The notes beneath the pieces are model-generated. The model saw only the letters and a program-made list of their open reading frames with translations. It ran no database searches and was not told the DNA's origin. From contig LIHN01000018.1 in assembly GCA_001314545.1 (NCBI GenBank), forward strand, positions 124,001 to 188,000: 64,000 nucleotides of DNA, in the 5' to 3' direction. Source of the DNA: Bacteroidetes bacterium HLUCCA01 (GTDB lineage Bacteria > Bacteroidota > Rhodothermia > Balneolales > HLUCCA01). Below are positions 61,702 to 64,000 of the stretch, piece by piece (position 1 is the first letter of the stretch; every line of letters begins with the position of its first letter). The position numbers and the translations under genes are program-made.

Positions 61702-62424
61702 ATGGAACTGTTAGTCAATATTGACCATATCGCGACCTTACGGAATGCACGCGGCGAGGGTGTGCCGGATCCGGTAGAGGCGGCCCGGATATGCGAAGAC
61801 AACGGAGCGGCCGGCATCGTGTTTCACCTGCGTGAAGACCGAAGACACATCCGTGATCATGACGTATATGCACTTCGGGAACACATCCGCGGTACCGTTG
61901 ATTTTGAAATGGCCGCCACCGATGAAATGCTGGGAATCTGCGAGAAAATTCGCCCGCATATTTGTACCCTGGTCCCGGAGAGCCGCCAGGAGCTCACTAC
62001 CGAGGGCGGACTGAACATGCGGATGATTTTTGAGGATTACCGTTCCCGCGTGATACCGCGACTGCTGGATACCGGTACTATAATCAGTCTTTTTGTAGAC
62101 CCCAATCCCGACGACATACAACGTTGCAGGGAGCTGGGCGTCCAGGCCATCGAGCTGCATACCGGAATGTATGCCAACGCCCGGAAAGCTTCGGTGGTGG
62201 AACATGAGCTTGAACGTCTGCGCGAAGCCGCTGAACTGGCGCACAGCCTTGGACTCATCGTGAATGCGGGCCACGGGCTTAACTTTACCAATACCACACC
62301 CTTCATCCGGGCGGTACCGCATCTGGCCGACATCAGTATCGGTCACGCGCTGGTGACCCATGCCGTGTTTCACGGACTGGCAACTTCGGTGCGCACCATG
62401 GCCGATATCATCAGCAAAGGTTAA
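61702..62424 (+). CDS. pdxJ: Pyridoxine 5'-phosphate synthase
   Basis: The 240-residue TIM-barrel enzyme condenses 1-deoxyxylulose 5-phosphate with aminoacetone phosphate to form pyridoxine phosphate. Characteristic segments are LLVNIDHIATLRNARG, DNGAAGIVFHLREDRRHI, FEMAATDEML, TLVPESRQELTTEGGL, AIELHTGMYANA and VNAGHGLNFTNT. The length is typical. It is 12 bases upstream of era. Confidence 0.96.
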   Translation: MELLVNIDHIATLRNARGEGVPDPVEAARICEDNGAAGIVFHLREDRRHIRDHDVYALREHIRGTVDFEMAATDEMLGICEKIRPHICTLVPESRQELTTEGGLNMRMIFEDYRSRVIPRLLDTGTIISLFVDPNPDDIQRCRELGVQAIELHTGMYANARKASVVEHELERLREAAELAHSLGLIVNAGHGLNFTNTTPFIRAVPHLADISIGHALVTHAVFHGLATSVRTMADIISKG

Positions 62425-62436
62425 CGGGTAAGGCTC

Positions 62437-63363
62437 ATGGATTTCATTGAACCCCCAAACGACGAGCTCAACGATTCGCCTGAGTTTTCGCCCGGGCACC
62501 GGGCGGGTTTCGTAGCGATTATTGGTCGACCCAACGCGGGAAAGTCCACCCTTTTGAACGCCATCCTGGAGTTCAAGCTGGCCATCGCCACGCACAAGGC
62601 ACAGACTACCCGCCATCAGATACTGGGTATCCTCAGCGAAGCGGCCCACCAGATGGTCTTTCTGGATACACCGGGAATCATCGAACCCGAATACAAGCTT
62701 CAGGAAGCCATGATGCAGGCGGTGGCGCGGTCGACCAAGGACGCTGATGTGCTGTTGCATCTGGTAGATGCTACCCGTCCGGCGGATGAAGAACGGGTCT
62801 GGAAATACATGCATGCTTCAGGAAAACCTGCTGTGCTGGTGATCAATAAAGTGGATGCGGCGGGCGATGAGGTCGTTGATGCGATTAAGGCGGCATGCAC
62901 CGCAGCATTTGCCTACCGTGAAATTGCAGCGATTTCTGCTGCCCGTGGTACCGGACTTGATGAGCTCAAAATGGCTCTGGGCCGACAATTACCGCTAAGT
63001 CCGCCGCTGTACCCGCCCGATCAGCTCAGCGAACACCCGGTCCGGTTCTTTGTATCGGAGCTCATACGGGAGCAAATATTCCTGCAGTACGCCCAGGAGA
63101 TACCTTACTCATGCACGGTCACCATTTCTTCATTCAAAGAGGAAGAAAAAATGGATCACATCCACGCCGAAATTATCGTGAACCGGGACTCACAGAAGGG
63201 AATTCTGATTGGTAAAGGCGGGATGAAACTAAAAAAATTGGGCACAAAGGCCCGCGAGCAAATCGAGCAGCTGACCGGCAGGAAGGCCAATCTTCAGCTA
63301 TTCGTAAAAGTCAGGGAAAAGTGGCGCGATAAAGACAGCTACCTGCGCGGATACGGGTACTGA
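62437..63363 (+). CDS. era: GTPase Era
   Basis: The 308-residue GTPase assists 16S rRNA processing and 30S assembly. It has P-loop GRPNAGKSTLLNAIL, the switch KAQTTRHQILGI, G3 DTPGIIEPE, G4 NKVD, G5 SAARGTG, and a C-terminal KH domain with IIVNRDSQKGILIGKGGMKLKKLGTKAREQIEQL. The N-terminus is about 20 residues longer than E. coli Era. It follows pdxJ directly. Confidence 0.96.
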   Translation: MDFIEPPNDELNDSPEFSPGHRAGFVAIIGRPNAGKSTLLNAILEFKLAIATHKAQTTRHQILGILSEAAHQMVFLDTPGIIEPEYKLQEAMMQAVARSTKDADVLLHLVDATRPADEERVWKYMHASGKPAVLVINKVDAAGDEVVDAIKAACTAAFAYREIAAISAARGTGLDELKMALGRQLPLSPPLYPPDQLSEHPVRFFVSELIREQIFLQYAQEIPYSCTVTISSFKEEEKMDHIHAEIIVNRDSQKGILIGKGGMKLKKLGTKAREQIEQLTGRKANLQLFVKVREKWRDKDSYLRGYGY

Positions 63364-63526
63364 CGGCAGGCCGGCGCTTTACGTGAAATTGCGAATGACG
63401 GGCTGCCAGCGCGGGTACGCACAGTATTCCTGCTTGCCACGGGACGGATTGTACGTGGGGCATATTCCGGGAATTCAGCCAGCGATTCGCCACAATTTTC
63501 ATCGAATCTGGATTGGCATAAAAAAA

Positions 63527-63560
63527 TTTTGTGCATGGTTTGAAAAAGTCCTTATACTTG
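63527..63560 (+). promoter_or_regulatory. Promoter of the Met/Cys leader
   Basis: TTTTG (63527-63531), 21 bases, TATACTTG (63553-63560) fits the Bacteroidetes consensus with one mismatch. The start would be at or within a few bases of the leader ATG at 63566, so the leader mRNA may be leaderless. Confidence 0.55.
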
Positions 63561-63565
63561 TAACC

Positions 63566-63625
63566 ATGTCAAAACAACAAAACACATCCATCGCCAAGCG
63601 AAGCTGTATGATGCTCTGTAGCTAA
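63566..63625 (+). CDS. Met/Cys leader peptide (attenuator)
   Basis: A 19-codon frame, MSKQQNTSIAKRSCMMLCS, ends TAA at 63623-63625. Near its end are Cys-Met-Met-Leu-Cys-Ser. The stop codon is one base before a 9-base segment that pairs with the 5' arm of the terminator. This is the classical layout of a transcription attenuator: a ribosome stalled at TGT ATG ATG leaves the antiterminator free, and one that reaches the stop masks it. The regulated amino acid should be methionine and/or cysteine. Confidence 0.7.
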   Translation: MSKQQNTSIAKRSCMMLCS

Positions 63626-63626
63626 C

Positions 63627-63687
63627 AGGGCTTTTGAAGTTTATGACATAATCAAAAAAGCCCTCCATTTCCTGCAGGGCTTTTTTT
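63627..63687 (+). terminator. Attenuator: competing antiterminator and terminator
   Basis: Segment A AGGGCTTTT (63627-63635) is a perfect complement of AAAAGCCCT (63656-63664) in segment B. Segment B (AAAAAAGCCCT, 63654-63664) is also complementary to segment C AGGGCTTTTTT (63676-63686). B:C with the T run to 63687 is an intrinsic terminator; A:B excludes it. Confidence 0.8.
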
Positions 63688-63712
63688 GTACCATGTTCTT
63701 TTGTTACTGGAA

Positions 63713-63846
63713 AGCTCTTATCAAGAAAGGCGGAGGGATCAGGCCCTGTGATGCCTTAGCAACCGCCCCGGTTTAACCGCCGGGGGTCAGGTGCTAAATC
63801 CTGCCCGGCTGGTGCATGCACTGGCTTGGGGAAGATGAGAGAAGCT
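63713..63846 (+). ncRNA. SAM-I (S-box) riboswitch
   Basis: The RNA shows the S-box core: CTTATCAAGAAAGGCGGAGG, GGCCCTGTGATGCCTTAGCA followed by ACC, the P3 hairpin, GGTGCTAAATCCTGC and GATGAGAG. Stem P1 pairs CTCTTATC (63715-63722) with GATGAGAG (63834-63841). The conserved kink-turn and SAM pocket segments are all present. It senses SAM and controls the terminator downstream. Confidence 0.93.
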
Positions 63847-63865
63847 GGATTTTATCTGTTAAAGT

Positions 63866-63908
63866 AAAAGCCTCTTCTGTCATCGTAAAAACGGAAGAGG
63901 CTTTTTTT
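63866..63908 (+). terminator. Riboswitch-controlled terminator
   Basis: AAAAGCCTCTTCTGT pairs with ACGGAAGAGGCTTTT and ends in seven T residues. The 5' arm (CTCTTCTGTCATC) partly matches the 3' strand of P1 (GATGAGAG), so P1 disruption could form an antiterminator when SAM is scarce. Confidence 0.88.
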
Positions 63909-63938
63909 ATTCAAGCAATTGTCAACCAAAAACAACCG

Positions 63939-64000
63939 ATGAAATCGACGTTCAATACCTGGTACGAGGAAAAGATGTACGCCACCGACGAGCTGGCCGC
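63939..64000 (+). CDS. Start of a SAM-regulated gene, cut by window edge
   Basis: An ATG at 63939, 31 bases after the riboswitch terminator, opens a frame that runs to the edge (MKSTFNTWYEEKMYATDELA). Only about 20 residues are visible and I cannot identify them. The position after a SAM riboswitch and a Met/Cys attenuator implies methionine or sulfur-amino-acid metabolism or transport. Confidence 0.6.
   Translation, partial: MKSTFNTWYEEKMYATDELA

Follow-up and report, generated by a model that had tools for sequence, protein, structure and literature searches.

The leader region described here is intergenic and lies at the end of the window, by which we mean the whole 64,000-nucleotide stretch of DNA from Bacteroidetes bacterium HLUCCA01 that was analyzed. 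It is located between a gene for an Era-type GTPase and an operon that runs beyond the window. Its parts follow one another in the order promoter-like pair, 19-codon ORF, terminator 1, GTTCTTT motif, SAM-I aptamer, terminator 2 and the first ATG at 63939. The features have the following coordinates in the window:

62437-63363, same strand as the leader: Era-type GTPase/KH-domain gene
63529-63558, + strand: predicted sigma-70-type promoter (TTGTGC, 18 nt, TATACT), from sequence
63566-63625, + strand: leader ORF, MSKQQNTSIAKRSCMMLCS, read from the sequence; a Cys/Met ORF is present at 73 of 78 same-order sites
63566-63649, + strand: long-range helix P0, 63566-63575 (start codon region) with 63639-63649; lineage-specific
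63613-63619, + strand: segment 1 (protector), pairing with 63625-63631 (1:2, −9.4 kcal/mol); partly supported across relatives
63627-63635, + strand: segment 2, antiterminator 5′ arm AGGGCTTTT, starting one base (63626) past the stop codon
63655-63687, + strand: terminator 1, with segment 3 at 63655-63664 and segment 4 plus U-tract at 63676-63687
63695-63701, + strand: boxA-like GTTCTTT, at 72 of 78 primary sites; core common to rRNA leaders of relatives
63715-63841, + strand: SAM-I riboswitch aptamer (RF00162), Rfam score 80.4 bits against a gathering score of 44.4
63867-63908, + strand: terminator 2, from sequence; predicted from its position to be the expression platform of the SAM riboswitch
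63939-64000, + strand: start of the first operon gene, for a CoA-binding protein (PF13380); the rest lies past the window

Reading the contig on past the window (locus L002) gave the operon order CoA-binding protein, MetY, OsmC, MetX and AK-HSD. The named relatives of the first gene belong to Balneolales and Balneolaceae; one from a Bacteroidetes MAG, for example, is 97% identical and one from a Balneolales MAG 80%. MetY is of the O-acetylhomoserine aminocarboxypropyltransferase type (TIGR01326 match, 688 bits), the third gene encodes an OsmC-like protein, MetX is a homoserine O-acetyltransferase (PRK00175 match) and AK-HSD is a fused aspartate kinase-homoserine dehydrogenase. A gene for an Rrf2 regulator follows 644 nt beyond AK-HSD. 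MetY and MetX make homocysteine, and the operon as a whole serves the synthesis of homocysteine and methionine. A sequence-only reading of the DNA had described the region as a Met/Cys leader-peptide attenuator; the attenuator stood up to the analysis below, but the description was incomplete, having overlooked the SAM-I riboswitch with its own terminator directly downstream; the protector pairing, the boxA-like GTTCTTT and the promoter-like pair had likewise gone unmentioned.

Leader ORF and alternative RNA pairings

The leader ORF comprises 19 codons, from the ATG at 63566 to the TAA at 63623-63625. Its putative regulatory codons are Cys14 (TGT, 63605-63607), Met15 (ATG, 63608-63610), Met16 (ATG, 63611-63613) and Cys18 (TGT, 63617-63619). 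Taken alone, the peptide is only mildly unusual: when the region upstream of the aptamer was shuffled 300 times, 8 shuffles equalled its Cys/Met score. The −10 box ends 7 nt ahead of the ATG, and the leader mRNA is therefore predicted to be leaderless.

Segment 2, AGGGCTTTT at 63627-63635, is a perfect 9-nt complement of AAAAGCCCT at 63656-63664, the 5′ arm of terminator 1, and this degree of complementarity was reached by none of 500 shuffles. The 3′ arm and U-tract of the terminator are formed by AGGGCTTTTTTT (63676-63687). The ORF, the terminator and the 9-nt antiterminator arm one base past the stop codon had all been claimed by the sequence-only reading and were confirmed by direct reading. 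The protector pairing joins GCTCTGT at 63613-63619 to ACAGGGC at 63625-63631, and its duplex energy was reached by 88 of 500 shuffles. A 129-nt stretch of the leader folded at −35.9 kcal/mol versus −23.5 kcal/mol for dinucleotide shuffles (z −3.94), better than all 200 of them. A simple terminator scan with a loop limit of 3-8 found none, and a stricter consensus scan found no promoter in 62000-64000; the empty result of the simple promoter and terminator scan is due to its strict rules.

The effect of ribosome position was modeled by folding with masked segments. When 63590-63624 was masked to represent a stalled ribosome, a footprint that spans both Met codons (63608-63613), the antiterminator alone formed (−12.3) in RNA up to segment 3. 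Masking 63608-63638, as for a ribosome at the stop codon, led to formation of terminator 1 in the window RNA, and with no ribosome masked the protector and the terminator folded together.

Leaders at related SAM riboswitch sites

The comparative sample consisted of 141 non-duplicate SAM sites from the same class: 78 same-order sites at the operon, 8 second SAM sites and 55 sites from other orders. Some of the same-order sites were obtained by similarity to the window and others by the aptamer alone, and the duplicate loci L018, L023, L042 and L052 were removed. The second SAM sites belong to the same genomes; the seven that were read are all followed by a protein that we take to be the N-terminal part of MetH. 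Among the 40 named loci 26 were read, in 5 of which no SAM core was found; named carriers of the leader include Fodinibius roseus, Fodinibius sediminis and Aliifodinibius salipaludis.

A leader was scored when an ATG ORF ending 15-135 nt upstream of the aptamer contained at least three Cys/Met in 12 codons. By this rule leaders were found at 71 of the 78 same-order operon sites, at none of the 8 second SAM sites and at 2 of the 55 other-order sites. The two other-order matches (L082 and L099) look like chance, being equalled or beaten by 15 and 2 of 300 shuffles, respectively. Reading by hand added L133, which has a TTG start, and L139, where the stop lies further upstream than the rule allowed, bringing the same-order total to 73 of 78. 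A longer GTG start was assigned to L129, and L113, with only 125 nt upstream, was counted as a miss. The leader is absent at L033, L069, L130, L138 and L146.

The leader peptides, of which MSMCCMSCHGR, MKQIATLISCCMCCMRESHTA and MKRIQKHICRLCCMCMCMPHLQPED are examples, all contain cysteine (71/71 distinct leaders), and an internal methionine is present in 69 of 71, the exceptions being L032 and L014, a member of the window's own family that does have cysteine. Cysteine makes up 17.3% and methionine 13.0% of the residues, and the cysteine codons are TGT (175) or TGC (96). Since cysteine is the more constant codon, 'Cys/Met' is a safer label than 'Met'. Alignments, covering 15 of the 17 leaders of family f3 and chosen subsets of 20 and 14 from the 43 leaders of family f4, were used for reading only. 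Over the last 15 codons, Cys plus Met amounts to 42% in frame, while the two other frames give 17% and 2%. The strongly structured leader RNA would suit a T-box, or a different RNA that binds a tRNA or a ligand and works independently of translation, but the constraint acts on codons in frame, and there was no Rfam T-box match at gathering nor at E ≤ 5. Besides SAM-I and tRNAs no Rfam family matched the window at gathering, and the sub-threshold rows were at chance level; T-box and other Rfam families were rejected, and this explanation is very improbable.

A terminator was found at 68 of the 73 leader sites, including the window; for five of these (L003, L014, L022, L133 and L137) the terminator was set or redrawn manually. 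The five sites at which none was found (L019, L024, L027, L032 and L080) all belong to one genus. At L019, L024, L027 and L080 of this genus (g7) no intrinsic terminator is present; the leader ORF extends nearly to the SAM aptamer, and its start pairs with its end in a long hairpin, of 12 bp in L019. The mechanism in this genus may differ and involve Rho or a direct effect on the aptamer.

At the 68 sites with a terminator, the pairing of the stop-codon region with the terminator 5′ arm (2:3) was stronger than expected (p < 0.05 against 500 shuffles) in 62, with a median of −13.5 kcal/mol versus −6.2 kcal/mol for shuffles. In a covariation test the arm belonging to each site was set against arms from other genera, using 65 distinct sites after removal of 3 repeated rows. 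Among the cross-genus pairs, the cognate one ranked in the best 20% at 42 of 65 sites for 2:3, at 61 of 65 for the terminator pairing 3:4 and at 25 of 65 for the protector 1:2, where 13 would be expected. Against shuffles, 1:2 reached p < 0.05 in 15 of 68 sites, and the protector as a general feature is only partly supported.

At every one of the 65 distinct sites the antiterminator arm starts within −9 to +6 nt of the stop codon, and at 63 of them two or more Cys/Met codons are situated 10-30 nt ahead of the arm. The geometry proposed from the single sequence, in which a ribosome at the stop codon covers segment 2 and one at the Cys/Met codons does not, fits the window and the relatives as far as positions show. 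A lack of conservation of peptide or pairing in relatives had been named beforehand as one result that would refute a Met/Cys leader-peptide attenuator, and both were conserved, as judged from the ORF, the arm against shuffles and the cognate 2:3 arms.

Two further explanations can be weighed against these data. Many leaders carry CC or CxC clusters, as would suit a Cys-rich nascent peptide that stalls the ribosome through metal binding or oxidation, the leader then being a sensor of redox state or zinc, not of tRNA charging. We regard this as improbable because the order of residues is not conserved, Met-dominated leaders exist (L011, with six internal Met and one Cys, and L258, described below), and the conserved feature is the position of codons relative to the arm. 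Alternatively, the hairpin could be an ordinary 3′ terminator, belonging either to the Era-type GTPase gene (same strand, end at 63363) or to a small RNA, with the peptide arising by chance. However, a promoter-like pair lies in between, and across the order the Cys/Met ORF, the arm and the terminator stand at a conserved distance from the SAM aptamer; this explanation was rejected and is hardly credible. An attenuator and a SAM-I riboswitch as tandem off-switches appear, from these comparisons, to be kept across a Balneolales-type order.

A −10 box lies 4-9 nt ahead of the leader start at 27 of the 73 leader sites, including the window and all members of families f1, f2 and f5, and leaderless translation of the leader is accordingly predicted for many lineages. 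In family f3 strong promoters of the TTGACA/TAAACT type lie 23-59 nt from the leader start (17/17), and at 16 sites of family f4 no promoter was found by the rule used. Helix P0, which joins the start codon region to the stretch past segment 2, reached p < 0.05 at 23 of 73 sites and had the cognate pair in the best 5% at 27 of 70 (3 repeated rows removed). As a general feature it is unsupported, and it was kept as a lineage-specific one. It is strong in some lineages, for example in the window, L128, L135 and L140, and there it could lock out re-initiation.

The GTTCTTT motif occurs ahead of the aptamer, mostly 14-24 nt upstream, at 72 of 78 primary sites, none of the 8 second SAM sites and 6 of 55 other-order sites, against a background of 0.006 per 70 nt for the loci concerned. 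It was also found ahead of 16S in 8 of 9 rRNA loci read from six genomes, and 3′ of 16S in the ninth (L193). The rRNA loci read are those of relatives; in the genome of the window no 16S was found. By its consensus we take GTTCTTT to be a probable boxA, a Nus antitermination site.

Outside the class, elsewhere in the phylum, 50 SAM sites were sampled, of which 23 have GTTCTTT and 5 (L225, L231, L249, L253 and L258) pass the same leader threshold. In L231 a leader ending in MAMCMCCMCNIGPR is followed by a terminator and a MetY-like ORF, and in L258 a Met-rich leader with one Cys is followed by a terminator, GTTCTTT and a MetY-like ORF; because of the terminator and the MetY-like ORF downstream, both were taken as real by eye. 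In addition, L167, from a MAG labelled Ignavibacteriales, has a PCPCCCM leader ahead of the SAM core and a hairpin without U-tract.

Cysteine, methionine and the proposed mechanism

Genomes with and without the leader were compared for cystathionine β-synthase (CBS). A strong match (E < 1e-100, or in one genome a match split over contigs) was present in 70 of 73 genomes with the leader and in 2 of the 5 without it. The lack of CBS in 3 of 5 versus 3 of 73 genomes gives a Fisher p of 0.0025 if kinship and genome completeness are ignored; completeness is 67-80% for the three leader genomes that lack a strong CBS match. The genomes that have neither the leader nor a strong CBS match are those of L033, L130 and L138 (G034, G191 and G128). 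By profile match, a full-length CBS is present in the genome of the window. A profile search of the four genomes of the window's family found no strong CysE, and cysteine in this family is therefore probably derived from homocysteine. Homocysteine is the precursor of methionine and, via CBS, probably also of cysteine. A sensor of both amino acids fits such a pathway, with the SAM aptamer reporting a further product.

We consider it highly probable, from sequence and comparison, that the leader, which stands in series with a SAM-I riboswitch, is a classical transcription attenuator in which the ribosome responds to Cys and Met codons. Sequence and comparison show the ORF with its codons, the mutually exclusive pairings and their positions, the content of the operon and the conservation; the stalling, the response to amino acids, the combined logic and the roles of boxA and of leaderless initiation are what we infer from them. 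The course of events would be as follows. RNA polymerase would start at the leader AUG or right beside it, and a ribosome would load on the leader ORF. With Cys-tRNA or Met-tRNA in short supply, this ribosome would stall at TGT-ATG-ATG (63605-63613), opening the protector pairing 1:2 and leaving segment 2 free, so that 2:3 could form and terminator 1 would not. If both are plentiful, the ribosome would reach the stop codon and cover segment 2, 3:4 would form and transcription would end. Without translation, 1:2 would likewise lead to termination. Read-through transcripts would next meet the boxA-like site and then the SAM aptamer, where high SAM would cause a stop at terminator 2. Full expression should thus need low charged Cys- or Met-tRNA together with low SAM.

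A rather unlikely alternative is that the attenuator senses cysteine alone, the Met codons being incidental and the SAM riboswitch reporting the methionine branch. The presence of cysteine in every distinct leader, the two leaders without internal methionine and the frequent lack of CBS in genomes without the leader would agree with this. It does not account well for a methionine share of 13% of internal residues, for the six internal Met and single Cys of L011, or for the leader in the window, where Met accounts for two of the three codons in the best position. For the attenuator that reads both amino acids, a more elaborate version can be put forward tentatively, with the odds somewhat against it: a serial AND gate on a single transcript in which a leaderless Cys/Met leader acts as a one-shot device, its start codon being locked in P0 after the pioneer ribosome, boxA reloads polymerase with the Nus complex for the untranslated stretch, and the SAM-I riboswitch follows.

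Relation to known regulatory leaders

Classical leader attenuators of the his, thr, leu, trp and phe type consist of a short ORF with regulatory codons, a protector, an antiterminator and a terminator, and the position of the ribosome decides between the structures. The leader in the window has the same layout of ORF, antiterminator and terminator, with a predicted protector, and its best sub-threshold Rfam match was Thr_leader (RF00506; 23 bits versus a gathering score of 55). Unlike the classical leaders it combines Cys and Met codons, has an ORF that is predicted to be leaderless, and is placed in series with a riboswitch. The downstream half of the region is a member of the SAM-I (S-box) family RF00162, and is distinguished by having its own attenuator and a boxA-like site ahead of it.

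Cysteine attenuators have been published before. For the uORFC-8-2 motif of cysS in Rhodobacterales, in which a uORF with tandem Cys codons precedes an intrinsic terminator, ribosome-mediated attenuation has been proposed (PMC8632094). As far as that paper's accessible part goes, this motif differs in controlling cysteinyl-tRNA synthetase and having two Cys codons, with no SAM riboswitch mentioned. Short Cys-rich ORFs ahead of cysteine genes have been described in mycobacteria and actinobacteria (PMC4633059, PMC1262725); in the portions available these have Cys only, unlike the leader in the window, and PMC1262725 reports no conserved terminator for the mycobacterial Cys uORFs and no conserved RNA structures for actinobacterial methionine operons. 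Leader peptides outside Proteobacteria and Actinobacteria (PMC2965389) and clues to leader peptides in a flavobacterium (PMC9723704) also appear in the literature. Neither a Met/Cys leader nor a leader peptide arranged in series with a SAM riboswitch appears in the accessible parts of these papers, and a literature search, with most subscription journals outside its reach, turned up no description of a Met/Cys leader that precedes a SAM riboswitch. Each part of the present leader is of a known kind; what is new is that Cys and Met codons are mixed, that a SAM-I riboswitch follows in series and that a boxA-like site is present.

If the proposed mechanism is correct, a leader-peptide attenuator and a metabolite riboswitch, two classic RNA strategies for amino acid control, would be joined in one leader that reads two end products of homocysteine and then SAM. 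Methionine would be added to the amino acids sensed by attenuators outside the familiar set, and culturable bacteria would harbor a natural two-input logic gate. If the AND gate also holds, two kinds of sensor, tRNA charging and a small-molecule aptamer, would have been multiplied and kept across an order. The boxA-like site before the SAM aptamers would bear on how polymerase crosses long untranslated riboswitch leaders.
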